DNA of 50,060 nucleotides from Chrysochromulina tobinii. Its lineage: Eukaryota > Haptophyta > Prymnesiales > Chrysochromulinaceae. Both the position numbers and the translations under genes were made by a program. This document shows positions 11,691 through 50,060 of the stretch, piece after piece. Position 1 is the first letter of the stretch, and each line of letters begins with the position of its first letter. Below the pieces are notes generated by a model. The model saw only the letters and a list, made by a program, of their open reading frames with translations. It did not search any database and was not told where the DNA came from. The DNA lies in assembly GCA_001275005.1 (NCBI GenBank), contig JWZX01003125.1, positions 1 to 50,060 of the forward strand, read 5' to 3'.

Positions 11691-12158
11691 GGAAAATCTG
11701 ACAATTCTGACTCACCGCACTGTGTAGGAAATCCGCCTCACTGAGCCGGAAACTGACTCACTGAGTCGGATTTCCGCTTATTTCCGCCTGCTCACTGAGT
11801 TAACACTGAGTCGGAAGATTTCCGTCTCACCGAGCCGCATTGTGCGCAGGCACCTGCACTGGGATCAAGATGATCCTCGTATGATTGAACATCTTCGCAT
11901 CAAATATCGATGGCTGCGCTGGAGCCAGCCGAAGCTGCTCTGCCGCGCCGGGTGGAGCGCGGCGGGTATAGCGAAGTGGACGTGCGCAAGGCGCTCTCGC
12001 AAACTGCTCGCAGCTCGCGCACGTCGAGAAGGGCAGGGAAGGGCATTCATGTGCCGCCGACCCCGTCACACCTTCTCCTTTGCCATGAGACCAACTAGGC
12101 CTTGACGTCCTAAGTTTTCATTTACAGCAGCGTTCACACCGCTTTCTTTTCACCGACG

Positions 12159-14841
12159 ATGAACTTCGTCCACGGCGCGTCGTCGGACACGGCCGAGAAG
12201 GGCGAGCGGTACGGCTGGTCGAGGCCCGTGCCGGCTGCTCGTAGAGGCCGCAAACGGCCGCATGACGACGAGAGCGATGAGGATGCCTACTTTGACAAGG
12301 ACGAGGAGCCACAGCATTCCAGAGCGGCAGCACCAACGCCCGAAGAGGACCCTCTGGATGCCTTCATGGCCGAGCTACACGGGCGCAACGCGCGCACTGC
12401 TCCGCAAACTGACGACCCTGCTGCGCCTGCTGCCACTCGCCCTGCCACGGCTGGCGCCGTAAAGCCGTGGGATGCAGCTCCACCTCCTCCCCCAACGGCG
12501 GATGACTTGGAAGAGGACCCTCTGGACGCGTTCATGGCCGGTCTCGCATCGGCGCCCTCACAGCCCAAGGGCAGGGAGCGCGCCGTCCAGCAGTGCGACG
12601 AAGAGGAGGATCCGGTCGCGTCGTACCTCGAAGAGAGCGGGCTGCGCGCGGCGGAGGCCGAGGCCGAGGCCGAGGCCGAGGTTGACGGTGGCAGCGTACG
12701 CCGGCAGCTCAAGGGCCAAAAGGGTGGCGGGAGCTCCATCGGCGCGGAGCTGCTTCCGGTGGACCACGCGGCCATTGAGTACGATGCATTTGAGCGCGAG
12801 CTCTACGCTCCACACCCGACGATCCGTGAGCTGAGCGCCGAGCAGGTGCGCGAGCGGCGAGCTGTGCTACGGCTGAGCGTGAGCGGCTTCGACGTGCCCT
12901 CGCCCATCGCGCGCTTCGAGCACGCAGGCCTGCCACGCGAGCTGCTCGCGACGGTGCGTAAGCTCGGTTACGAGGAGCCCACATCCGTGCAGATGCAGGC
13001 GCTGCCGGTGGCCATGTCGGGCCGTGACCTGATCGGCGTGGCTGCGACTGGCTCGGGCAAGACGGTGGCGTATCTGCTGCCTCTCGGATGCCACGTGATG
13101 GCACAGCGCCGTCTCGAGCACGGCGAGGGCCCGATCGGCCTCGTGCTCGCGCCCACGCACGAGCTCGCCGAACAGATTGCCCTCGAGTGCCGCAAGCTGC
13201 TGGGTCGCTCCCTCGGCCTCAATTGTGCGTCACTCATCGGGGGCGTCGGCAAGTACGAGCAGCTCAAGGCCCTCCGGGCGGGCTGCGAGGTCGCGGTGGG
13301 CACGCCCGGCCGCCTCGTCGAGCTCCTCGCGATGAAGAACGGCCTGTGTGCGCGCCGTGTGACCTTCGTGGTCCTCGACGAGGCCGACCGCATGTTCTCG
13401 CTCGGTTTCGAGCCGCAGGTGTGAACACGGCTGTGAGCACGGCGGGGCCGAGGTTCAGCAGACACTCTGAGCCCATCAGATGGCCTCCCGATGGCCTCCC
13501 GATGGCCTCCCGATGGCCCCCGATGGCCTCCCGATGCCCCCCCGATGGCCCCCCGATGGCCCCCCGAGCTGCTCCCGAGCTGATCACATTCGGTGGCCCT
13601 CGCCCGATCGCTTGCAGGTGCGCGCGATCTTGCAGCAGGTGCGCCCGGACCGCCAGGCCCTCCTCTTCTCCGCCACCTTCCCGCCGGCGCTCGAGCGGCT
13701 CGCGCGCGATAGCCTCTCGGAGCCCATCCGGCTGGCTATCGGCACGGCGGGCGACGCGAACGAGGACGTGACACAGCTCGTCGAGGTGCTGCCGACCGAG
13801 GAGCTCAAGTGGCCGTGGCTTGCCGCGCGCCTCGAGCACTTTCTGCAGCAGGGCACTGTCCTCGTCTTCGTCTCGACACGGCTTCAGGCGGATGGACTGG
13901 CGGCACAGCTGCAGGCGCACATGGGACGCGCCGTCGTGGCGATCCACGGAGAGAAGAGCCAAGCCGAGCGCCAGGAGACCCTGTATGACTTCAAGCGCGG
14001 CAAGATGCCGCTGCTCGTGGCGACGGACGTGGCGTCACGCGGCCTCGACATCCCCACTATCAAGACTGTCATCAACTTTGACGTGGCCAAGCGCCTCGAT
14101 GACCACACGCACCGCATTGGACGTACGGGCCGCGCCGGCGCCACTGACGGAACCGCGTACACGCTGCTGACGGCGGGTGAGATGGATGCTGCCGTGGACA
14201 TGGTGCGCAGCCTGCGGACGGCGCGGCAGGTGCCCTCAGAAGAGCTCCTTCAACTGGCCCGGCGCTCGCGCAGGTGGGCCGCCTCTGGCCTCGATGACAG
14301 CTCTATTGGCGGCGGGAGCGGCGGAGGAGACGGCGTTGACAGAGGCTGCGGGAGCGGCGGCGCCGGCGAGGCTGGCCGTGGTTTGCGCCATCAGTTTGCG
14401 CCACCATCGCAGCATCGCGTCGCCTTGCTCGAGCACTCCACATCAGATCCTGTAGCGCGTGCACAAGCTTTCGCCGCGAGACTCAGTTCGCAGTTGGGCA
14501 CTGCCGCCGGTGCCAACGGCTACTCCTCTCACCAGTTTGCACCGCCGCCGTCGCATTTCCTGCCGCCGCCACGACCACCACCGCCGCAGCCACCGCCACC
14601 ACCACCGCCACCACCACCGCCACGGCTGGCAACCTCAGCAGCAGCGTGCGGCGGTGAAGTACCCCCTGGCATCCCCCCCGCCCTCCCGACGTGCCAGGCT
14701 GCTGCAGTTGCCGCAGCGCGTGCAGCAGCTGAAGCGATCGCCTCCCGGCTATCGGCCTCGGCTGCAAACGGTGGCGCCGCTCCGCCGCCCCCAGCACCCC
14801 CCGACAGTGGCGGCGGCGCACGTTCGAGCCGTTGGAGTTGA
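12159..14841 (+). CDS. DEAD-box RNA helicase, DDX42/PRP5 (DDX46)-like, two exons
   Basis: Exons 12159-13418 and 13618-14841 give 827 residues. The N-terminus carries two EEDPLDAFMA motifs (~64 and ~113), a hallmark of the DDX42/DDX46 spliceosomal helicases, in an acidic region. The core has the Q region (SVQMQALPVAMSGRD), ATGSGKT (~297), APTHELAEQ, GTPGRL, DEAD (~407) and, across the intron, SAT (~438), ATDVASRGLDIP and HRIGRTGRAG (~584). Motif Ia is THELA rather than TRELA. The exon join is after FEPQ and before VRAILQQV, the expected continuous sequence. The tail is Gly-rich and then polyproline. The role inferred is branch-site/U2 snRNP remodelling. Confidence 0.88.
13419..13617 (+). other. 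Intron of the DDX42-like gene carrying an 11-nt minisatellite
   Basis: A 199-nt phase-0 intron, GTGTGA...CTTGCAG. From ~13479 to 13567 it is a tandem array of GATGGCCTCCC and variants (about eight units). The unit is close, in the same sense orientation, to the 10-nt TGATGGCCTC unit inside introns of the beta-galactosidase gene 30 kb away. Confidence 0.8.
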
Positions 14842-20322: not shown

Positions 20323-21708
20323 TCACGGGCGTCCGCGGCCTGACGAGGTGCGCGCGGGCATCGGCGTCTTGGACGCACGCGGCGCGGGCGCGGGCGGTTG
20401 CGAGGGCACCGTGAGCACCGTTGCGCTCACCTTGCGCGAGGCCGGCGCCTCCTCCTCTTCCTCCTCGGCCCGCCGCGCCTTCTTGAGCAGACGGCCGGGT
20501 GTCATGGCGGCAGTCGCCCCGATCTCGAACGTGCCGGGCGTCGTGGTGGCGGCCGCCGCGGCCGAGCAGCGAGCCGAAGGGTGAGGCGACTGCGAGCCGT
20601 CCGACTGCGACTGCGAGCCATCGTCAGTGCCCTTGACAGTGCGGCCAGTCCGCTGCACGAGGCGCGCCGACTCGCGAGGACGGAACTCGGTAAGCAGGCG
20701 CTCGCGCTCGAGCACGTGGAGCACACGCTCGGCGCCGGCGCGCGAGCAGCCGAGCTCGCGGGCGAGGGCGACAGAGGTGAAGGGCGCGCCCTCCTCCTCC
20801 TCCTCCACCAGGCGGCGCGCGCATGCGACGTACTCGGTCATCGTTGGCTCGTCGAGCTCGTCGGCGTGAGCGCCGAGCTCGCCCGCGACCGAGGCGCCGA
20901 GGTCGAGCTGCCAGCTCTGCTGCTCGCGCGGGCCGGCGGGGGCCTTGCGTTTGAGCCCGCTCGGCGCGAAGGCGTCGTCCTCCAAGAACGAGCTCACCAC
21001 ATGCATGCGGTACGAGTGGTGCCCGGTGGCAACGGGCTGGGCGACGGTGAGCTGCATCGGCTTCGTGAGGAAGCAGAGGGATGCACGGTCGTCAGCCGCC
21101 GCGCTCTCGAAGCCGCTAGGCTCGTAGTCGGCCGGCGTCAGGCCGTCGCGGTAGAGGAGGCGCATGAACACGAAGTGGTTTGATGGTAGCGCCGGCAGCG
21201 TGCACAGCATGAGCGAGATCTGCCGCAGCATGAGCGAGGACATCTGCCGCACACGCGCCTTGGTGACCTTGGCCTGTGGCTCGAGTACGCCGGTGAGCGC
21301 GGCCGCTCGGCGCTTGTCCGGGCCGAAGGTGATGGTCGGCTTCTCGACGCCCTGCTCATCGACCTCCCAGGCGATCGAGAGCACCCACGCCTCGAGCACG
21401 TGCTTGCCCGCCTCGTCCTCCGAGAAGCAGAGCACGGCCTTCTCTAGGAAGCGTTTGGAGAGCGCGGAGAAGATGCCCTTCTCGATCCACGCGATCAAGG
21501 TCTCTGCCGTCTTCGAGATCTCCGGGCCGCCAAGTGATTGCACGCGCATGCCCTCCACGTCTTTCGTCTCGAAGTCGGACTCGGGAAGGCAGCCGCGCGC
21601 GTACAGAATCTGCGAGACGTTGAGCCGGAGGAGGTTGCGGATGACCGCAAGCGACTGCACCTCGGTGGCCGTCGCCTCGGCGGTGGCTGTGGATGTTGCT
21701 GATGGCAT
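20323..21708 (-). CDS. HORMA-domain protein (Hop1/HORMAD/ASY1-like)
   Basis: 461 residues, intronless. The HORMA domain spans ~16-235: SLAVIRNLLRLNVSQILYAR, then GCLPESDFETKDVEG, KTAETLIAWIEKGIFSAL, a VLEAWVLSIAWEV segment and SSLMLRQISLMLCTLPALP. HORMA proteins of this type coat meiotic chromosome axes and recruit partners through closure-motif peptides. Residues ~283-345 (EYVACARRL, then FTSVALARELGCSRAGAERVLHVLERERLL) look like a winged-helix domain, as in Hop1 family central regions. The C-terminal tail is Ser/Ala-rich and basic and could hold the protein's own closure motif. This implies a meiotic sexual cycle. It is head to head with the EF-hand gene. Confidence 0.82.
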   Translation of the reverse strand: MPSATSTATAEATATEVQSLAVIRNLLRLNVSQILYARGCLPESDFETKDVEGMRVQSLGGPEISKTAETLIAWIEKGIFSALSKRFLEKAVLCFSEDEAGKHVLEAWVLSIAWEVDEQGVEKPTITFGPDKRRAAALTGVLEPQAKVTKARVRQMSSLMLRQISLMLCTLPALPSNHFVFMRLLYRDGLTPADYEPSGFESAAADDRASLCFLTKPMQLTVAQPVATGHHSYRMHVVSSFLEDDAFAPSGLKRKAPAGPREQQSWQLDLGASVAGELGAHADELDEPTMTEYVACARRLVEEEEEGAPFTSVALARELGCSRAGAERVLHVLERERLLTEFRPRESARLVQRTGRTVKGTDDGSQSQSDGSQSPHPSARCSAAAAATTTPGTFEIGATAAMTPGRLLKKARRAEEEEEEAPASRKVSATVLTVPSQPPAPAPRASKTPMPARTSSGRGRP

Positions 21709-21906
21709 CGGAGAGGTCGCGTAAGTAGACGCTCGCTTTCACGCGCATGCAATTCGAAGTTAACACGCGCAACTCGGGTTCAAACAGCCCCGCGTAGCCC
21801 CACGGGAAGTGCTCGTTTCGGCGCGCGCGCGCTTCGCATATGAGCGTTCAAAGGTGCAGGCTCGAAAAGCGGTCAAGCCCCGACGCGGTTCAGTCCAACT
21901 GGGGTG
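21709..21906. promoter_or_regulatory. Divergent intergenic region, HORMA / EF-hand genes
   Basis: 198 nt between the two start codons. It contains alternating GCGCGCGCGC at ~21820-21830. There is no clear TATA-like element, and it presumably acts as a shared promoter. Confidence 0.45.
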
Positions 21907-37647: not shown

Positions 37648-40086
37648 TTACTCGATTGTCATCAGCGCGCCTGTGACAGCTACCATAGTCGCCACAGCGT
37701 TCGCTCCACCTGGACCGATGCCATTGTTCTTGAAGTTGAGCGACGCGAGCTTGGTTTCCTTGTTACTCTGGATGGCCTTGCAGACTGCCCTTACGCCCTC
37801 ATCCTTGAGGTCATTGGACGACAAATCCAGGGCCGTCAGCCCGTCTGTGACGGCTACCATAGCCGCCACAGCGTTCGCTCCACCTGGACCGATGCCATTG
37901 TACTCAAAGTTGAGCAACGCGAGCTTGGTCTCCTTGTTGCTCTGGATGGCCTCGCAGACTGCGTTTATGCCCTCATCCTTGAGGTAGTTGAACGACAAAT
38001 TCAGGGCCGTCAGCTCGCCATTGACACGCAGAGCGTCTGCAACCACTGTGATGCCCTCTGCAGTGTAAGTTCCATAGACAGAGCCGCACAGCTGGTTGGA
38101 GCTGAGGTCGAGGCTCGTCAGCCCGCCTGTGACAACGGTCTGTGACAGGTCCGACGCCAGCAGGATCGCATCGGGCGGCTTCAGGTTCTTGTGGGAGAAG
38201 TCAGCGGTGGTCTGGTCGCGCTGGATGCCGCAGAGCGAGATGCCCTTCTGCTTGGCGACTTTGGCAAGCATCTTGGCGGACTCCGCATCAAGCTGATTGC
38301 CCAGGAGGTTGGTCACCGTCAGCGCGCCATTGACGCCAAGCATCTTGGCCACATGCTTGGCACCTGCTGCCCCTCCGATGTTGTTGAAGCTAGGGTAGCC
38401 TCCACTCAGATCGAGCTCCATGAGCGTCGTGTTCTGTTCTAGTGCCTCGCATATGGCCTTGGTGCCCTCCTCCTCCAACCCGTTTTGGGCGAGCGACAGC
38501 TTCGTCAGCGCGCCGTTGACGCGAATGGCGTTGGCAATCGCTATGATGCCCTCTGTGGTATAGGTGCCATGTTGGTCTCCTCTCCAGTCAGTCCAGATGC
38601 CACACAGCTGGTTTCCGGAGAGGTTGATGCTCGTCAGCCCGCCGTTGACTCCAAGCATCTTGGCCACGTGCTTGACTCCTGCTGTCCCACCAATGTTGCT
38701 GTTTCCTGTCATGTTGCCGCTGATTTCAAGCTCCTTGAGCGTCTTGTTCTGTTCTAGAGCCTCGCAGATGGCCTTTGTGCCCTCCTCCCCCAACTCGTTT
38801 AACGCGAGTGATACTTTGGTCAGCCCGCCGTTGACGCCAAGCATGTCTGCCACATGCATGGCGCCTGCTGCCCCTCCGATATTGGTTTTCATGAAGCCAG
38901 ACAGATCGAGCTCCTTGAGAATTTTGTTCTGTTTGTTCTGTTTGAGTGCCTCGCAGATGGCCTTGGTGCCCTCCTCCCCCAACTCGTTGAAGGCGAGTGA
39001 TATTTTGGTCAGCCCGCCCATGACGGGCACGAGGTACGCGATAAGCATGCCGCCCGGAACGCCGATGTTTTGCCCATGCAGGACGAGCTCAGAGACGGAG
39101 TCGTCGCGCATCATCTGCACCGGAATGCCGTGCACCTCGCCAGAGCCGGCGCAGGCGACAGCTGCAAGCAGGAGCTTGAGCGGCAGCTCACCATTGCCCT
39201 CGATGCAGCTGAGGAGAGCAGCTTTGGCACGGCCTCCAAGGAACGGCGTCTCGTCCTCGTCCTCGTCCTCGTCCAGATCCACCTCGCGGACCGCGGCCAC
39301 ACTCACCGTGAAGCCCTCCCAACGCAGTCGGGCCAGGCTGGGCAGCATTCTCCCCGCCGCCGCCGCCTCCCATGGCCGACCCGCGTCGACGAGGACCTTG
39401 ATGTTGAGATCGGTGATCTCAGCCATCTGAGTCGGCACGGACTGACCCTCGCAGCGGCTGAGGCGGGAGCAGAGCACGCGCCGCGCGAGCGCCAACCACG
39501 ATTGGCTCACGCCCTTGAGCTCGGCCAGCGTGCCCACGTCGACCATGCCCAGCGCCACCTCCTTGGCATCGTCTGTGACTGCAATCCCCGACAGAGAGGG
39601 CTGCGGCTGCAGCGCGGGTGGGTCCGCAGCAGAGCCCGCCGTGGCTACTGATAGCTGCCCCCCCGGCGAGAACGCCGGCTCGGCGAGTGCCGCCACACGA
39701 TTCTCCGCACTGCCAAAGTCATCCGTCGCGCCGAGCAGCTCTCTCAGCTCATCGGCACGTTTGCCGTTGAGGCGTGTGGCGAGGGCGCACTGCGCGTGAT
39801 TGAGCGCCCCGGGGGCGTCGAGGAAGCTGGCGCCCTCGACGAGCCTGAAGAGCTCCGAGATCGAGCACTGCTCGAGTCTCGCCGGCATGGAGTCGGCCTC
39901 GCACATCTCCCGGAGCACTACCAGCTCTTCCGCCGCAATCGTCGGCACCGGGTAGACGCCATCTTCGGGTGGAGCGTCGTCCATCATGTCTTTGAGCGTG
40001 CCAGCTCGCTGGGCCACCCGGCGCGTCCACTCGACAGCCTCGCCCTCGCGCGCCCGCAAGCGCACGCGCTCCTGGTCGTCGGACAT
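37648..40086 (-). CDS. Single-chain Skp1-like / F-box-like / LRR protein
   Basis: 812 residues. Residues ~7-140 resemble Skp1: a BTB-like start (AGTLKDMMDDAPP, VPVPTIAAEELVVLREMCEA) and a Skp1 dimerisation-type end (ALNHAQCALATRLNGKRADE, then LRELLGATDDFGSAE). Residues ~170-205 (AKEVALGMVDVGTLAELKGV then SQSWLALARRVL) fit an F-box. From ~290 to the end are RNase-inhibitor-type leucine-rich repeats (GLTKISLAFNELGEEGTKAI and similar). Together these are the three parts of an SCF substrate-recognition arm in one chain. The last two LRRs are a recent 174-nt tandem duplication. The domain calls are from pattern memory; the LRR is certain, Skp1 likely, the F-box probable. Confidence 0.72.
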   Translation of the reverse strand: MSDDQERVRLRAREGEAVEWTRRVAQRAGTLKDMMDDAPPEDGVYPVPTIAAEELVVLREMCEADSMPARLEQCSISELFRLVEGASFLDAPGALNHAQCALATRLNGKRADELRELLGATDDFGSAENRVAALAEPAFSPGGQLSVATAGSAADPPALQPQPSLSGIAVTDDAKEVALGMVDVGTLAELKGVSQSWLALARRVLCSRLSRCEGQSVPTQMAEITDLNIKVLVDAGRPWEAAAAGRMLPSLARLRWEGFTVSVAAVREVDLDEDEDEDETPFLGGRAKAALLSCIEGNGELPLKLLLAAVACAGSGEVHGIPVQMMRDDSVSELVLHGQNIGVPGGMLIAYLVPVMGGLTKISLAFNELGEEGTKAICEALKQNKQNKILKELDLSGFMKTNIGGAAGAMHVADMLGVNGGLTKVSLALNELGEEGTKAICEALEQNKTLKELEISGNMTGNSNIGGTAGVKHVAKMLGVNGGLTSINLSGNQLCGIWTDWRGDQHGTYTTEGIIAIANAIRVNGALTKLSLAQNGLEEEGTKAICEALEQNTTLMELDLSGGYPSFNNIGGAAGAKHVAKMLGVNGALTVTNLLGNQLDAESAKMLAKVAKQKGISLCGIQRDQTTADFSHKNLKPPDAILLASDLSQTVVTGGLTSLDLSSNQLCGSVYGTYTAEGITVVADALRVNGELTALNLSFNYLKDEGINAVCEAIQSNKETKLALLNFEYNGIGPGGANAVAAMVAVTDGLTALDLSSNDLKDEGVRAVCKAIQSNKETKLASLNFKNNGIGPGGANAVATMVAVTGALMTIE
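37671..38018 (-). repeat. 174-nt coding tandem duplication in the LRR array
   Basis: Two head-to-tail copies with a 174-nt period (58 codons, two LRR units), beginning at 37671 and 37845. They differ at scattered bases (for example ATAGTCGCC versus ATAGCCGCC). The frame is kept. Confidence 0.8.
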
Positions 40087-43341: not shown

Positions 43342-46300
43342 TCAGGAGATGACAATCTCGAAGAGCTGCGCGTCCTGAATCGACCACGCGCTCGCATCGA
43401 GCTCCGTGAGCCCCGCCCCCTTCTCCGCAGCGCCGTCGCGCCGAGGGCAACGCAGCAGCCGGCCGGTGTGCGCGCGGAAGGAAACGATGTCCCCATGCCG
43501 CAGCAGATGGGGCGGCTTATGGCGCGGCGCCGTCGTGGGCGGCGGCGCGCCCGGCCAGCTACCCGTCGACGGCGCCGTCGTGGGCACCAGTTCGATCCGA
43601 AACGCTTGCCATTCGGCAACCTCCGTCCACCGAGCCTGCACCGCGCTGCCCTCGACGTCCAAGCAGTAACCGTTGCCTCCGCGCAGGCTCACCGTCTCGC
43701 CTGAGAAGAGGGGACCGCCCGCCGTGGTGAGCACTTGCATGCAAGGCAGCTCATCCGTGGCAATCAACGTACCTGAGAAGAGGGGACCGCCCGCCTTCTT
43801 CTCGATGAGCACTGCGCCGTAGTGGCGGTGCGCGGGCGTGAAGTGAGCGGGTAACGGCGCAATCCCCACCTGATGAGGGGAGCAATCATGGGCAATGAGT
43901 GCGGTCATCAGAGGCCATCAAGTGGGCGGGTGACGGCGCATTCCCCACATGGTTGGCAAACAAAAGATAGACGGGAAGCTCAGTCGCGCGCTCGGAACAG
44001 CGCTCGGTGGCGGCGGTCGCCGGGCGGGCGTCTTCGTGCAAGGGCTTGGGACGGTCCGCCTCAAACGCAGCCCACGTGTCCGCTCCTCCAGCGCCGTCCT
44101 GGGCGCCGTCCTGAGCACCGTCCCGAGCGCCTTCCCGAGCACCACTCGCGGGCTTGGGGCTCTCTTCGAAAGATTCGGCGGCGGAGATCACGCCAGATTC
44201 GGCGGCGGAGATCACGCCAGATTCGGCGGCGGAGATCACGCCAGATTCGGCGGCGGAGATCACGCCAGATTCGGCGGCGGAGATCACGCCAGATTCGGCG
44301 GCGGAGATCACGCCAGATTCGGCGGCGGAGATCGGCGAGGCGAAGCCGAAGGCGAACGATTCCGAGGGCGAGCCTGATGAGTGGCGTCATCAGAGGCGAT
44401 CAATGGCGCGTCATCAGAGGCAATCAGTGGCGCGTCATCAGAGGCCATCCACGGCAGCTGCAGGTGGCGGCGCACCCAGTGGTGAAGCGAAGGTCGCCGC
44501 GAGAGTCGCATTCACGATCGTCCCTTGCTTGAACGCGGCGCTACCTTTCCTGACGGAGGTCCCAAGGGTGCTCCCGAGGGCAGGGCCGATGGCAGCCGCA
44601 CTCTCAGCCTCGCTCAGCGCGCGTAGCATCACCTGTGCAACGAGTGGCGTCATCAGAGGTCATCAAAGGCCATCAGAGGTCATCAGAGGCCATCCGAGAC
44701 ACATTAGGAGCTGAGTGCCCAAGTGCCATCGGTGGCCATCAGAGGCGATCAGAGGCGATCAGAGGCGATCAGAGGCGATCAGAGGCGATCAAGAGGCGAT
44801 CAAGAGGCGATCAGAGGTCATAAGTGCCAATTGCACCTACGTGCCCGAATGGAGCGTGGGACGTCATCAGCAGTCATCATTATTCAACAGCAATCATCAG
44901 CCGTCATCAGCCGTCATCAGCCGTCATCAGCCGTCATCATGACGCACCTTAGTGCCCGAATGGAGCGTGGGACGAACGCGTGGCGCTCCTGCCAACGCCT
45001 GCAGAGACTCGGGGCAGTGGTCCGTGCCGGCCTCGAGCGCCGACAGCCTGATCCGAAACAGAGGAGCGCTGATGAGGGAGGCAATCAAGGACCATCAGAG
45101 GCCATCCGAGGCAATCAGACCTGATCCGAAAATAGGAGCGCTGATGAGGCGAGATGAAGTACGGCTCACAGACCGTCTTGAGCGCCGTCCACGAGTCATG
45201 ACCACCCACGCCCATATGGAGAGCATCGAGGTGGACGTAGATCGAGGGCTCACGCCACTCGCGGAGTCGGTCGGTCGGCGGCGGCTGAGGGCGCGGCGGC
45301 GGCGGCGGCGGCACTGGCGCGCCGTGCTGGCGCGAGATCGTGAGCTCGTCCAGCGAGATGTTGTGTACCGTCATCAAGCTGGGCGGCAGCTCGGGCTGGC
45401 GGAGCGCCGTGCTGGGCAGTACCATGTCGGGCCACAGCACCGTGTTGGGCGGTGCCATGTCGGGGCGCAGCTCGCGCTCGTGTTTCGCCTCGGTGAGCGC
45501 CCCGACCGAGTAGGCGGACACGCTCACCTGGAGAGGGGGCGTGAGTGGCCCCGTGGCCAGCAGCAGCCCGCCGCCGCCGCCCCTGCCCTCGCCGCCGCCC
45601 TCGCCCTCGCCCTCCTCCTCACCGGGCGCCGTATTGGGCGCGCGCACCGCCAGCCAGCGCACGCCGCCCCGCCCGCCGTTCTCACTGGGCACCACGTAGG
45701 CAGTGTGCATGCCCTCGAGGGGTAGCGTGTGCACGCCGAGCCACGCCGAGGCCATCCGATCGGGGTAATTCTCGTGAGGGCCCAGCCCATACCTAATGAG
45801 GGAGGCACTCAGATGCAATCATACATGCGATTCCGATCGGGGTCATTCTCGTGAGGGCCCAGCCCATACCTAATGAGGGAGGCACTCAGATGCAATCATA
45901 CATGCAATTCCGATCGGGGTCATTCTCGTGGGGGCCCAGCCCGTACCATGTGACGAGTGTCGAAGTGCCGCCGTCGATGCCGCCGCCGGTGCCGCCGCCG
46001 GTGCCACTGCCGGTGCCAGTGCTGGTGCTGGTGCCAGTGCTGATGCCGGTGGCTCCGGTCGGTCGAGGAAGTTCGAGGATGACTCCAACGCGAGGTATGC
46101 TCGCAGGGCTCTCAGACGAAGGGTCGCCATTCGCCGCCGGCAGGCGCACCTGCAGCCGTCATCAGCCGTCATCAGTCGTCATCAGTCGTCATCAGCCGTC
46201 ATCAGCCGTCATCAGCCGTCATCAGCCGTCATCAGCCGTCATCAGCCGTCATCAGCCGTCATCAGTGACCATCGGCGCACCTGCAGCTGCAGATGACAGC

Positions 46301-49300
46301 AGACCTCGATGCTCGCGTCCCCCGCGATGAGATACACGAACGTCGCCGTACCAAGGCGCTGCCCCTTGTCGCCGAGCAGCCCCCAGTCGACGAGGACCGA
46401 CACGAGGGAGCGGCACGGCTGCCACGCACGCAGCCCCTCGAGGGTGCGGCTCATGTTGTGAAGCCCCGCCGCTCGCCATTGGTCGGCGTAACGGCCGAGT
46501 TCGTCATTGTCCGTTGGCGCGCGCCAGAGCGACGGGATCGGCCCCACCTGATGAAGGACGCAATCAGAGGTCATCAGTGGTTATCAGTGGTCCTCAGTGG
46601 TCCCAAAACGGTCATCAGAGGTCATCAGAGGTCATCAGCGGTCATCAGTGGTCATCAGAGGTCATCAGAGGTCCCAAAGCGAAGGGATCGGCCCCACCTT
46701 GGCCTTGAGCCTGCCGTCCACCACGTAGTTACGAAGCACGCCGTCTGCATCCACAGAGACGTCGAAGTGCTCTCCCGAGACGCTCCATCCGCCATGGCCG
46801 TCTGCAGCGAGCGTGAGCGGCGCCAGCGCATCGAGCTCGAGAAAGGGCGACGCGCCACTCTTCGTCAGCGCACCAGCACCGCCGCCGCCGCCGCTGCCCG
46901 CGAGGACGCACGGCGCACAGGGCGGCGGCGTGACCTCCCATGTGAAACGACCGACGGTTTCACCTCGGGCGGCCCACGCGTGCTCATCGCGCCAGATCGT
47001 GACGAGATCGATGGCCAGGGTGCCGCCAATCGGCGCCGCAAACGCCGCCGAGAGCGCCGCATGCCATGGAAGCGACGTCGCCGCAATCGACCACGTGGCA
47101 CCGGGCGGCAGGGCAGGGGTGCTCGCAAAGGCACCGTCGGCCATCGGGAGCCCGTCGCGGCGCAGCTGCCAGCGGAGCGCCGTGGTGAGCACTTGCATGC
47201 AAGGCAGGTCATCGGTGGCAATCAGCGCAGCTGCCAGCGAAGCGCCGTGGTGAGCACTTGCATGCAAGGCAGGTCCTCGGCGGCAATCAACGTACCTGCC
47301 AGCGGAGCGCGTACAGTTCGTCGAAGCGCCCGAAATCGAGCATCGAGCGCAGCGTGAGCAGCCGGCCTGTGGGCGCGAGGGTGGCGTACAATGGCTGCTG
47401 CAGATGGCGCACCTGATGGGGGAGGCAATCATGGCCCGTGGGCGCGAGGGTGGCGTACAATGGCTGCTGCAGATGGCGCACCTGATGAGGGAGGCAATCA
47501 TGGACCCTCAGAGGTCATCAGCAGCGTGAGGATGGCGCTACAGGGGCTGCTGCAGACGGCGCACCTCCTCTAGCGCAGGGTGTGGCGTCCGGTCGGGGAA
47601 CGTGAGGCCATTGATGCAGAACTGGCGATCGTGCTGGTAGGAATGGGGCCCGAAGTCGCCGCCGTACGCCCAGCGCATCGTGCCATCGGAGAGCCGTTGG
47701 AGCAGCCCCTGGTCGCACCTGATGAGGGAGGCAATCATGGATCATCCATGGCCATGAGCAGCAGCAGCAGAGAAGCCGATGGAGCAGGCCCTAATCGCAC
47801 CAGCCCCAGATGACCCCTGATGAAGGAGGCCATCATGTATCATCAGTGGTCATCAGTGGGCGCACCAGTCCCAGATGAAGCCGCCTTGCACGTGCGCATG
47901 CTCCCGGAAGAGCGCCCAATAGTCCGCAAGCCCGCCGTTCGAATTGCCCATGGCATGCGAGTACTCGCACAGGAGCAGCGGCCGGTCGTCATTCCCCACA
48001 GCGTCGACCAAATGGGCGCAGTGCTCGGGGCGCGCGTACATGGGCGAGATCACCTGGGAGATACATGGGAGATACATGGGAGATACATGAGCGATACATG
48101 GGCGAGATCACCTGGGAGTCACTCAGCGGCACTCAGCGGCACTCAGCGTCACTCAGCGGGGTTCAGAAGAGAGACTAGGGCGACCAGAGGGGCCTTAGAA
48201 GAGAGATTAGGGCCATCCGAGGGCATCGGAGGGCGATGCCGAGGCGATCCGAGGGCATCAGAGGGCGATGCCGAGGCCATCCGAGGGCCATCACCTCGGA
48301 GGCGCCGTTGTGGCAGTTGCCCAGCCCTTCGTAGTGAGAGGGACGCGTCGGGTCGCGCGCGTTGATCCACTGCCGCATGAGCAGATGGGTGGGTCCAACG
48401 CCACTCTCATTCCCCAGAGACCACATGAAGATGCATGCGTGGTTCTTCTGCGACTCGACCATACGTGTGACGCGAGCTAGCAGGGCACGCCGCCACTCGG
48501 GCGACGCGTTCAGATGGAGCTTGTTCGAGGGGGCGGGCAGGGAGACGAGGCCGTGCGTCTCGATGTTGGCCTCGTCCATGACGTACAGACCCACCTCATC
48601 ACAGATCTCGTACCTGATGAGGGGCGCAATCAAAGGTATTGAGGGACGCAAACAAAGGTAATGAGGGACGCAATCAAAGCTGGGCGCGCGGCCGCACCTG
48701 ATGAGGGACGCAATCAAAGCTGATGAGGGACGCAATCAAAGCTGATGATGAGGGGTGCACTCAGGGGACGCACTCAGAGGGCGCAGCTCAGGGGCACTCC
48801 GAGCCAGATCGCGAGCTCGTCGCAGATCGCGAGCTCGACGCAGATCGCGAGCTCGTCGCGGAGGTCGCGTACCAGCGCGTCGCGTTTGGATAGTGCGAGC
48901 AGCGCCTCGCGTGATGAGGGAGGCAATCGAGGGTGGCAATCACGTACCAGCGCGTCGCGTTTGGATAGTGCGAGCAGCGCGTCGCGTTGAAGTTGTACTT
49001 CTTCATCATCAGCGCGTCCGTCCACATGGACGCATCGCTCACGTACCTGATGAGGGGGGCACTCAGGTGCAATCATGCATGCAATCAGATGCCATTCGAG
49101 GCACTCTGTATAGCACGACCCCGCTCACGCACTTGCCCGTGTGCTCATCGTGCTCGTGCCGGTTGACGCCCTTGAAGATGACCGGCACGCCGTTGATCAG
49201 CAACTTCTTGCCTTGCACGCAGCATGTGCGCGCACCCAGCCGCTGCCATTCCCACTCGAGCACCCCACCAGGCTCCTCGCCCGCGTACCTGTGATGAGGG

Positions 49301-50060
49301 AGGCAATCCGAGGCACTCAGAAGCACTCAGAAGCACTCCGAGGCACTCAGAAGCCCTCAGAAGCAATCCGAGGCACTTCCACACGAACATCCCCACAGGC
49401 CCTCGCGCGCGCGCACCGCTCAACCGCGGCCATCAGCGGCCATCAGCGGCCATCAGCGGTCATCAGTGGCCATCAGTGGCCATCAGCGGCCATCAGTGGC
49501 CATCCGCGGCCATCAGTGGTCATCAGTGGTCATCAGAGGTCATCAGTGGTCATCGGTGGTCATCAGTGCGCGCGCACCGCTCATCCGCGGCCAGCATCGC
49601 GCCCGTGACGACGCCATCGGGCGCCTCGGCTGCGGCGTCGCTCACGTCAAGCAGAGCGAGGCTGAGAGTGTACCTGATGAGGGAGACCATCAGGCGTCAT
49701 CAGGCGTCATCCAGGCGTCATCCAGGCGTCATCAGAGGTCATCAGAGGTCATCAGAGGTCATCAGAGGTCATCAGAGGTCATCAGAGGTCATCAGAGGCC
49801 TTCCGAGGCGATCCGAGGGGTCATAAGGGCCATCCGAGGCGATCCATCCGTCCACAGAGGCCATCCGACGTACAGGTAGGGCGACTCGGCCGACCAGAGC
49901 TGCGGACTTTCGAGCGCCGTCTCGATTTCCAGGGGCAGCACATCCGCGCGTGCCGCCGTCGTCTCCTCCTGGCCCACCCATACGCGCGGCGCGCGGGCCC
50001 AGTTTGGAAAGAGGCCGCCGCCGCCGCCGCCGCCCCCGCCGCCGCTGCCGCCACCGACGC
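43342..50060 (-). CDS. GH2 beta-galactosidase (LacZ-like) with 17 introns and a C-terminal fascin-like domain; 5' end off window
   Basis: Hydrolyses terminal beta-galactosides. Exons, 5' to 3': 50060-49874, 49673-49578, 49418-49377, 49288-49133, 49046-48948, 48613-48295, 48053-47866, 47718-47565, 47412-47296, 47165-46698, 46547-46281, 46149-45947, 45792-45121, 45047-44948, 44632-44476, 44373-43949, 43869-43773, 43700-43342. All joins keep frame (~1368 codons). GH2 markers in order: [51 protein letters not shown], acid/base Glu in SLGNESGVG, nucleophile Glu in [47 protein letters not shown]. The N-terminal sugar-binding domain lies beyond the window. After the GH2 end ([11 protein letters not shown]) come a linker, (GVISAAES)n repeats and a fascin/beta-trefoil-like module ([19 protein letters not shown]). 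Exons 2-3 and 14-16 are the least certain. Confidence 0.87.
43701..43772 (-). other. Beta-galactosidase intron 17, same ~50-nt element as intron 9
   Basis: 72 nt, phase 1. It starts GTACGTTGATTGCCACGGAT, includes TTGCATGCAAGTGCTCACCA, then a ~22-nt copy of the exon 17 end (GGTCCCCTCTTCTCAG). The acceptor is that duplicate. Confidence 0.87.
43870..43948 (-). other. Beta-galactosidase intron 16
   Basis: 79 nt, phase 0. It opens with a copy of ~29 nt of exon 17 (GTGGGGAATGCGCCGTCACC against GTGGGGATTGCGCCGTTACC). The end is GATTGCTCCCCTCATCAG. Confidence 0.85.
44171..44333 (-). repeat. 24-nt coding minisatellite (GVISAAES)
   Basis: Seven units (six full, one partial), plus-strand AGATTCGGCGGCGGAGATCA..., start points every 24 nt from 44171. 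On the sense strand each encodes GVISAAES, in frame with exon 16. The copies are almost identical, so the expansion is recent. Confidence 0.8.
44374..44475 (-). other. Beta-galactosidase intron 15
   Basis: 102 nt, phase 1. Donor GTGCGC, acceptor CCACTCATCAG, with TGATTGCC/TGATGACGC words inside. The donor was chosen because it alone keeps the downstream frame ([12 protein letters not shown]). Confidence 0.55.
44633..44947 (-). other. Beta-galactosidase intron 14
   Basis: 315 nt, phase 0. Donor GTGCGT, acceptor GTTGCACAG. It contains a copy of the exon 14 end (CCCACGCTCCATTCGGGCAC), an array of TGATGACGGC units and another of GATCGCCTCT units. Internal exons cannot be excluded. Confidence 0.55.
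45048..45120 (-). other. Beta-galactosidase intron 13
   Basis: 73 nt, phase 2. Donor GTCTGATTGCC. The last ~29 nt of exon 13, including CCTCATCAGCGCTCC, are duplicated at the intron's 3' end, supplying the acceptor GGATCAG. Confidence 0.75.
45793..45946 (-). other. Beta-galactosidase intron 12, two 77-nt tandem copies of acceptor plus exon start
   Basis: 154 nt, phase 2. It is exactly two 77-nt units. Each is a copy of the first ~40 nt of exon 13 (reading [11 protein letters not shown]) followed by ATGATTGCATCTGAGTGCC and TCCCTCATTAG. Both intronic copies reach an in-frame stop if retained. Confidence 0.88.
46150..46280 (-). other. Beta-galactosidase intron 11
   Basis: 131 nt, phase 0. CTGCAGGTGCGCC spans both the donor and the acceptor sites. 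The interior is almost entirely TGATGACGGC/TGATGACGAC 10-nt units (about eleven), ending GGCTGCAG rather than the usual CTCATCAG. Confidence 0.85.
46548..46697 (-). other. Beta-galactosidase intron 10
   Basis: 150 nt, phase 0. It opens with a 24-nt copy of the exon 11 start (GTGGGGCCGATCCC, two mismatches over 24). TGATGACCTC/TGATGACCGC units follow, then GATTGCGTCCTTCATCAG. Confidence 0.87.
47166..47295 (-). other. Beta-galactosidase intron 9, two copies of a ~50-nt element
   Basis: 130 nt, phase 0. GTACGTTGATTGCC starts the element, which includes CTGCCTTGCATGCAAGTGCT and ends CACCACG. The exon end GCGCTCCGCTGGCAG recurs after each element copy (one copy with C to T), so the acceptor is a duplicate of the upstream exon end. 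Only the last acceptor keeps the frame open. Confidence 0.85.
47413..47564 (-). other. Beta-galactosidase intron 8, with two extra copies of the exon 9 start
   Basis: 152 nt, phase 0. It opens with a degenerate copy of ~40 nt of exon 9 (GTGCGCCGTCTGCAGCAGCC, then an in-frame TAG). A second, nearly exact copy sits at 47481-47438, each followed by GATTGCCTCCC.CATCAG. The second copy has its own acceptor 69 nt upstream of the main one, in frame. Confidence 0.85.
47719..47865 (-). other. Beta-galactosidase intron 7, holding a relic of the exon 7-8 coding junction
   Basis: 147 nt, phase 2. It begins GTGCGCCCA and exon 8 begins GTGCGACCA. 47774-47814 (minus) matches the spliced exon 7-exon 8 junction over 41 nt with 35 identities, including CTGGTGCGA across the present splice point. 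The end is GATTGCCTCCCTCATCAG. Confidence 0.85.
48054..48294 (-). other. Beta-galactosidase intron 6
   Basis: 241 nt, phase 0. It begins GTGATGGCC and the next exon begins GTGATCTCG. The acceptor region CTCCCAG plus the first ~22 nt of exon 7 is also present 58 nt upstream (second acceptor at 48112). That site would shift the frame. Confidence 0.8.
48614..48947 (-). other. Beta-galactosidase intron 5, holding a relic of the exon 5-6 coding junction
   Basis: 334 nt, phase 2. Donor GTACGT, acceptor GATTGCGCCCCTCATCAG. The 33 nt at 48873-48905 repeat the last 33 nt of exon 5 (48948-48980) exactly. They continue into sequence reading [10 protein letters not shown] two bases out of frame, resembling exon 6 ([10 protein letters not shown]). 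A GACGAGCTCGCGATCTG unit then repeats. Confidence 0.8.
49047..49132 (-). other. Beta-galactosidase intron 4
   Basis: 86 nt, phase 2. It begins GTGCGTGAGCG, while the next exon begins GTACGTGAGCG (10 of 11 the same). The acceptor is CCCCCCTCATCAG, preceded by GATTGCACCTGAGTGCC. Confidence 0.82.
49289..49376 (-). other. Beta-galactosidase intron 3
   Basis: 88 nt, phase 2. Donor GTGCCT, acceptor GATTGCCTCCCTCATCACAG. The interior repeats TGCCTCGGA/TGCTTCTGAG units. The preceding exon 3 is only 42 nt and less certain. Confidence 0.65.
49419..49577 (-). other. Beta-galactosidase intron 2 with 26-nt flanking duplication
   Basis: 159 nt, phase 2. The array is CTGATGRCCN 10-nt units. Plus-strand 49407-49432 and 49568-49593 are the same 26-nt sequence (one mismatch), containing GAGCGGTGCGCGCGC on the sense strand. 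The donor GT comes from the upstream copy and the acceptor AG from the downstream copy. Confidence 0.65.
49431..49800. repeat. 10-nt minisatellite arrays inside introns 1 and 2
   Basis: Plus-strand units are CATCAGCGGC/CATCAGTGGC at 49431-49570 and ATCAGAGGTC at ~49729-49800 (sense TGATGRCCNC). Related arrays are at 46150-46268, 46557-46677, 44741-44820 and 44885-44940. The unit always contains sense CTGAT or a close variant. Confidence 0.85.
49674..49873 (-). other. Beta-galactosidase intron 1
   Basis: 200 nt, phase 2. Donor GTACGT, acceptor CTCCCTCATCAG. The next exon also begins GTAC, so GTAC is duplicated across the intron. The interior is TGATGACCTC repeats (about seven perfect) followed by TGATGACGCC variants. 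Confidence 0.82.

Follow-up and report, generated by a model that had tools for sequence, protein, structure and literature searches.

Copies of adjoining exon sequence and repeat-built inserts at predicted introns of a GH2 beta-galactosidase-like gene in Chrysochromulina tobinii

How did a single gene of the haptophyte Chrysochromulina tobinii come to be interrupted by 17 predicted introns, eight of which end in nearly the same letters? The gene is beta-galactosidase-like and lies in a stretch of 50,060 nucleotides that was analysed whole (hereafter the window); its 5′ end is missing, as the contig, which is identical with the window, stops at position 50060. Rebuilt from the sequence, the gene is predicted to comprise 18 exons and 17 introns, all GT-AG (Table 1). 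When joined, the exons read through 1,367 codons in a single frame whose only stop is the terminal one. An earlier sequence-only reading of this DNA had claimed that the exons join in frame and that the downstream exon starts with GT at 12 of the 17 junctions; both hold. The ordered GH2 landmarks of that reading were likewise recovered: Pfam and PDB comparisons place the GH2 TIM barrel (Glyco_hydro_2_C, 5e-92) and the beta-galactosidase small-chain domain (Bgal_small_N, 4e-41) in the correct order; matches to E. coli LacZ chains reach ~2e-108, with a barrel alignment that spans introns 4–8. Beyond the GH2 part the protein has a C-terminal extension, as does one homologue (P0008). The accompanying view of GH2 LacZ as a typically bacterial gene was inaccurate: the matches listed include homologues from land plants and charophytes, and judged by these sequences such a gene is not odd for a eukaryote. 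Exon 16 also contains a perfect in-frame coding tandem repeat of 24 bp (ISAAESGV, 6.8 copies, 44171..44333), which is likely to vary in length.

Table 1. Position and make-up of the GH2 beta-galactosidase-like gene and its predicted introns (window coordinates).
Feature	Position	Strand	Length (bp)	Repeats, duplications and ends	Basis
GH2 beta-galactosidase-like gene with C-terminal extension, 18 exons	43342..50060	-			spliced model, Pfam, PDB LacZ
Intron 1	49674..49873	-	200	end GATGGTCTCCCTCATCAG; in-register repeat GTAC (4 bp)	
Intron 2	49419..49577	-	159	mainly 10-bp repeats; in-register repeat 6 bp	
Intron 3	49289..49376	-	88	motif variant 2 nt before acceptor, end CATCACAG; no in-register repeat	
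Intron 4	49047..49132	-	86	repeat CGTGAGCG (8 bp); GTrCGTGAGCG (11 bp) at one mismatch	
Intron 5	48614..48947	-	334	in-register repeat 6 bp; sequence of exon 5 (upstream) copied inside, along with several motif copies	
Intron 6	48054..48294	-	241	splice-site repeat 12 bp with one mismatch (score 8); interior with 24-bp copy of exon 7 start	
Intron 7	47719..47865	-	147	terminal exact motif; 6-bp in-register repeat; interior with degenerate exon copy	
Intron 8	47413..47564	-	152	22-bp exon duplication (47545-47566, 47393-47414); 69-bp tandem unit	
Intron 9	47166..47295	-	130	second family in two copies; acceptor from 15-bp upstream-exon duplication (47296-47310, 47166-47180)	
Intron 10	46548..46697	-	150	22-bp exon duplication (46678-46699, 46528-46549)	
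Intron 11	46150..46280	-	131	14-bp duplication GCTGCAGGTGCGCC with both splice sites; filler of 10-bp repeats	
Intron 12	45793..45946	-	154	39-bp exon duplication in three copies with two inserts (77-bp unit)	
Intron 13	45048..45120	-	73	acceptor from 12-bp duplication TTTCGGATCAGG; exact motif 21 nt upstream of acceptor	
Intron 14	44633..44947	-	315	minisatellite and internal 23-bp upstream-exon copy; splice sites without in-register repeat	
Intron 15	44374..44475	-	102	end differs from motif at 5 positions; no clear duplication	
Intron 16	43870..43948	-	79	29-bp exon duplication and ~50-bp insert only	
Intron 17	43701..43772	-	72	second family; acceptor from 24-bp upstream-exon duplication (43772-43795, 43700-43723)	

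The shared intron end is summarised by an 18-mer, GATTGCCTCCCTCATCAG, whose copies were counted as sequence matches across the genome (53.15 Mb in 2,253 contigs). It occurs in 991 exact copies and in 3,936 with at most two mismatches, with none for the reversed control, and the motif followed by GT has 3,112 matches at up to two mismatches anywhere. The end is thus no general acceptor of this species, the outcome that the sequence-only reading had named as refuting its proposal. That reading's "about eleven" related ends hold on a loose count; strictly, eight introns (I1, I4, I5, I7, I8, I10, I12 and I16) carry the motif exactly at their end with no more than two mismatches, the looser cases being I3, I13 and I15 (Table 1). 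A second family (GCATGCAAGTGCTCACCACGGCGC; 2,312 genome copies at three or fewer mismatches, control 0) makes up introns 9 and 17, and I2, I6, I11 and I14 have ends of neither family. The proposal that one element family was inserted repeatedly thus stands for the repeated insertion of multiplied, related introns (991 exact copies) and falls for their being of a single family. In the second family, longer copies possess their own GTACGT donor and shorter ones begin near GCATGCAAG. The CTGAT that precedes the acceptor by 16 nt is a candidate branch site.

Across the window, 17 matches with up to three mismatches were found against 0.04 expected, all inside this gene and on its strand, and the remaining 43 kb yielded none at this threshold despite many long open frames, which include DEAD helicases, HORMA (20326-21738), EF-hand, RING and LRR. 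The HORMA-domain gene shares 98% identity with a eukprot protein (Chrpa1) labelled Chrysochromulina_OHIO_Genome, a label that we read as the freshwater haptophyte Chrysochromulina parva, and 99% with a protein from ENA contigs. Of ten arbitrary stretches of 6 kb, drawn at regular intervals of contig number, three contained the motif (eight matches in total) and seven did not. Given this restriction to one gene of the window and to three of the ten stretches, we take the motif to mark a family that is spread unevenly across genes. Its orientation is consistent, with 208 of 220 matches on the majority strand of their own locus. Two further features of the neighbouring DNA were recorded. A DEAD-box helicase gene lies in two frames (12114-13421 and 13471-14838) separated by a stretch at 13421-13640 with minisatellite repeats of 11 bp, (GATGGCCTCCC)n; this stretch starts CAG/GTGTGA, ends TTGCAG and looks like a minisatellite intron without the CATCAG end. 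At 37662-38026 and 38633-38860, a 174-bp tandem repeat and repeats spaced at 186-189 bp occur within an 826-codon frame that has leucine-rich repeat matches.

A point absent from the first reading is that, on comparison of their letters, introns of this gene carry long and variable copies of the adjoining exon. Intron 16 is the clearest case: a 29-bp near-copy of the following exon is followed by ~50 bp of repeat with the end GATTGCTCCCCTCATCAG, and then by the exon proper. In-register duplications with a score of at least 12 were found at 8 of the 17 introns and at none of 272 mispaired donor-acceptor combinations, and at score 8 at 10 of the 17 vs. 19 of 272 mispaired controls. Nine introns fall below score 12, with 4-6 bp at I1, I2, I5 and I7, 8 bp at I4, 12 bp with a mismatch at I6, and nothing convincing at I3, I14 and I15; we assume that age may have erased the duplications there.

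The same arrangement recurs elsewhere in the genome. An anchored test covered 220 motif matches with enough flanking sequence, 30 of them set aside beforehand as repeat-like. Where GT or GC came next, a duplication scoring at least 12 was present in 50 of 132 matches (0 of 660 swapped-upstream controls), and where other dinucleotides came next in 30 of 58 (0 of 290 controls). The 50 still include tandem copies; a length filter left 39 and the removal of repeats 37. In these 37 clean, non-redundant cases below 45 bp, mean lengths are 26 bp for the duplication and 53 bp for the insert (32-89 bp), and the total length is 71-104 bp in 36 cases and 51 bp in one, within a searched range of 50-130 bp. 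Duplication length is thus variable, at ~13-44 bp for a score of at least 12 and a filter at 45 bp, by which longer duplications are removed and older or shorter ones missed. At its inner end no clear motif was seen, although 20 of the 37 duplications have C as their final base. These fractions are not genome rates, the loci having mostly been picked for motif matches (20 regions, one of them the last 60 bases of the window, and the loci of the genome-wide count) with the ten arbitrary stretches added, joined from the second-family test onward by loci found with the second family. Search distances were mostly 50-135 bp, with one search to 400 and the second-family search to 149; overlapping loci (L001-L007 and L009, later also L040) and satellite-like or repeated identical duplications were dropped before counting, and length figures exclude duplications of 45 bp or more, while two early tests retained L002 and L003.

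An unanchored method, applied to 219 motif matches, returned 58 clean cases and 122 without detectable duplication, the other 39 being excluded as satellite-like. The clean cases comprised 54 distinct ones: 20 could be spliced at CAG and 13 at another point of the duplication, and in 21 no GT or GC stood in register with AG. Where CAG could not serve for splicing, the start of the duplication was often not exactly at CAG, and selection may therefore account for the precision of the right end; by this method such precision was not demonstrated outside the spliceable cases. For the second family, 44 matches gave 22 distinct duplications and 18 without, and 13 of the 22 had GT or GC plus AG in register, a count without control in which a few are entered twice (L039 and L040 overlap). 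A scan for duplication-insert-duplication structures independent of either family was swamped by minisatellites when unmasked; after filtering, GT..AG stood in the same register in 51 of 126 pairs, with TG..GA in 32, GA..TG in 15, GT..GA in 13, TG..AG in 12 and AG..GT in 2 as controls. An open frame across the junctions does not discriminate (23 of 39 when spliced vs. 21 of 39 when shifted by 1 nt). Growth of a pure microsatellite was considered and rejected, the inserts sitting between exon copies. In 3 of 51 duplications (L012 minus 3312, L014 minus 7330 and L027 plus 1075) GC replaces GT at the start, and GC-AG introns may occur in this genome.

The inserts themselves are alike at one end. 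Over their last 12 nt the 37 clean inserts are 89% alike, partly by construction since the matches were chosen by that motif, and over their first 12 nt identity is 26%, the level of chance, with a weakly preferred TGAT phase (10 of 37 vs. 17% expected). Similarity near both splice sites was not found, the 5′ part of the introns being an exon copy. The filler has a period of ~10 nt (autocorrelation 0.41 at lag 10 and 0.32 at lag 11). At one locus (L022, C214:5500-14722, minus strand, ~4384 and ~5584), 52 identical nt that include the motif occur 1.2 kb apart between different exon duplications, which we read as one sequence inserted twice and a direct trace of copying within the locus. Similarity of at least 0.4 was reached by 4 of 886 within-locus pairs vs. 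3 of 22,809 between-locus pairs, small numbers that hint at local copying within a gene, some within-locus pairs looking like segmental copies. At another locus (L034, 5082-5407), five motif copies follow one another at 74-78 bp with exon copy plus insert as the unit, an intron enlarging by duplication of whole units.

Homologues bear on whether these introns were gained. Every one of the 17 intron sites lies inside the continuous reading frame of at least one homologue, the frame being uninterrupted at introns 1–6 in P0001 (79% identical), at intron 7 in P0002 (74%) and at introns 8–17 in P0008 (48%). Absence is weaker evidence at introns 2, 3 and 11, which fall in poorly aligned stretches, and at intron 15, in a weakly conserved one; intron loss is also less excluded for introns 8–17, as the intron-free P0008 is distant. 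The tails of P0001 and P0005 turn to non-homologous residues at one common point, and at the site of intron 7 the frame of P0008 continues across an in-frame insert, from which the homologue sequences appear to be raw frames. That insert, together with the divergence of P0002 at the intron 8 site, suggests that some intron sites may have been used more than once. Three ENA fragments from closer relatives (P0156, P0157 and P0165) match exon 6 at 95-99% identity and, according to their translations, share its ends, and the interiors of the neighbouring introns differ.

Taken with the exon copies, we consider it probable, with good confidence, that most of the introns are introner insertions, in which a short repeat-built insert lies in an exon, a stretch of this exon is duplicated on either side, and the predicted splicing restores the exact exon. 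The insert, of the lengths given above, would enter the exon with a branch-site-like CTGAT, a pyrimidine stretch and CATCAG, and would come to be flanked by the duplicated exon stretch. In the commonest layout (introns 8, 10, 12 and 16), the left exon copy would provide the GT donor and the insert the CATCAG acceptor; in the mirror layout (I9 and I17), the donor GTACGT would come from the insert and the acceptor CAG from the right exon copy; and in a third (I11) the duplicated stretch would hold CAG/GT and with it both sites. These duplications would be the reason why exons start with GT. Excision of the insert with one copy would return the original exon letter for letter, and insertions that reach the minimum of the spliceosome (~70 nt) would for this reason be nearly silent and survive, to grow later as 10-11-bp units, and entire units of 65-80 bp, are duplicated in tandem. 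We infer splicing from the frame, homology and GT-AG ends, and likewise infer the branch site and selection on length. As for length, duplication and insert are anticorrelated (r -0.70 in 36 cases above 69 bp), and inserts permuted under a 69-bp floor gave r -0.49, with 1.4% of permutations as extreme as observed. A near-constant total length had been entertained as a trace of the mechanism and was dropped, being mostly explained by this permutation; the simpler reading is that selection on a minimum intron length accounts for most of the anticorrelation.

Other origins have to be weighed against these insertions. If the shared ends reflected a convergent acceptor composition of the species, no family would be needed, and CTGAT, pyrimidines and CAG do resemble ordinary splicing signals; but an 18-mer in 991 exact copies, the lack of any match at up to three mismatches in the other 43 kb and the seven motif-free arbitrary stretches lead us to reject this explanation, which we hold to be scarcely credible. 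That the introns are old and were lost in the homologues is very improbable: the in-frame insert of P0008 and the divergence of P0002 could mean that some sites are old or reused, but exon duplications are still readable at eight introns, and many independent losses would be required. We also disfavour, as improbable, an ordinary DNA-transposon introner (MITE) with a fixed duplication and inverted ends. A terminal inverted match of at least 4 nt does occur in 13 of 37 inserts vs. 3.4% of shuffles, and one of at least 6 nt (CTGAT..ATCAG) in 4 of 37 vs. 0.1%, which would allow for a short inverted end; yet the 6-nt match is limited to these four, the left end is unshared apart from its weak TGAT phase, and the duplication is neither fixed nor within 3-9 bp.

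For an insertion that copies exon sequence in the way proposed above, either a staggered break with captured-repeat filler or target-primed reverse transcription may be responsible. Fill-in of staggered DNA breaks, repaired with captured, repeat-rich intron fragments, would give variable exon copies and needs no element-specific enzyme; we regard it as a serious candidate, if somewhat short of an even chance. Variable duplication lengths, the inner end without a clear motif, the existence of both donor-less and acceptor-less inserts, and duplications in both families agree with it, and it is the published model for Daphnia neointrons, with 4-12 bp repeats (PMC4202315, in excerpt). The duplications here nevertheless exceed those that the excerpt reports in Daphnia, and random capture leaves unexplained why the filler of the oriented pairs is, by eye, mostly TGAT-repeat or second family. 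Rather doubtful is a LINE/SINE-like route by target-primed reverse transcription, where an excised intron RNA ending in CAG-OH would be copied into a nicked exon with 5′ truncation and duplication of the exon. Long, variable duplications directly after CAG, the unshared left end (26%) and the longer and shorter copies of the second family fit such a route, and the genome has 26 reverse transcriptase domain matches, 22 above cut-off and 19 in frames of more than 1,000 codons. Against it, the common right end is partly a product of how the search was built, the I9 and I17 inserts without a 3′ end do not suit copying from that end, the 37 clean cases show no clear endonuclease or nick motif, and the route would call for a partner element that shares this 3′ end. 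A live RNA-based birth of introns, with excised intron RNA copied back into nicked exon DNA, long target duplications supplying the missing splice site and the element carrying half an intron, is accordingly graded as unlikely.

How do these introns compare with known systems? Under the tandem-duplication model for AGGT segments, a duplicated exon can yield both splice sites. Intron 11 is similar in that both sites come from duplicated exon, and differs, as far as the excerpted descriptions go, in the repeat element between the copies; a case of intron birth by tandem duplication is given by potato RdRp (PMC4974935, in excerpt), and repeats of 4-30 bp, with a mean of 11.4, are reported from a survey that took in every class among 213 introns (PMC11782384, as excerpted). 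Daphnia neointrons, whose 4-12 bp exon repeats are ascribed to staggered-break repair in the excerpt of PMC4202315, share direct exon repeats at opposite ends of new introns and internal repeats with those described here, and differ in the shortness of these repeats; the genome-wide insert family found here has no counterpart in that excerpt. In Amoebophrya, introners likewise combine repeated introns with direct repeats across exon-intron borders, but according to the part of the account cited have short direct repeats (3-5 nt), inverted repeats of 8-20 nt and non-canonical splice sites (PMC7789003), unlike the present introns.

Closest at hand are the introners described from aquatic protists, Chrysochromulina sp. 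among them, for which last the cited portion of PMC9860276 gives 4-bp duplications, no inverted ends and a 5′ splice site carried by the element; duplications of 3-9 bp are given there for earlier introner families. In both sets many related introns lie in exons, and the element brings one splice site while a duplicated target yields the other. On the same portion of that source, they differ in the duplication, 4 bp there and variable at ~13-44 bp here (filter at 45), and in that the 5′ parts of the present introns are exon copies, mutually unlike, with minisatellite-like inserts. Features of introners found here are copy number (991 exact, 3,936 near, and 2,312 for the second family) and insertion into exons that are continuous in relatives; the fixed 3-9 bp target duplication of DNA-transposon introners was not found (13-44 bp and variable here). 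On these sequence comparisons we call the present class a variant of introners, in which a multiplied element is joined with long, variable duplications. The published introner search, as excerpted, accepted families that were similar close to the two splice ends and filtered out those of low complexity (PMC9860276), and such a pipeline would for both reasons tend to miss this class. Among the matches listed in a search of titles and abstract starts of open-licence PMC literature, none dealt with C. parva introns or with introners having long, variable duplications.

The origin of new introns is an old open question, and many introns of this alga seem to retain the scar of their birth, with the element, the exon copy and the splice site all readable, and with the element family present in thousands of genome copies. 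A clean test is also possible, as removal of such an intron should give the exact exon, and the floor of ~70 nt would be a measure of what the spliceosome of the alga accepts. Since the ends of this class lie outside the design of the published introner search, counts of gained introns may be too low for haptophytes and for other algae.
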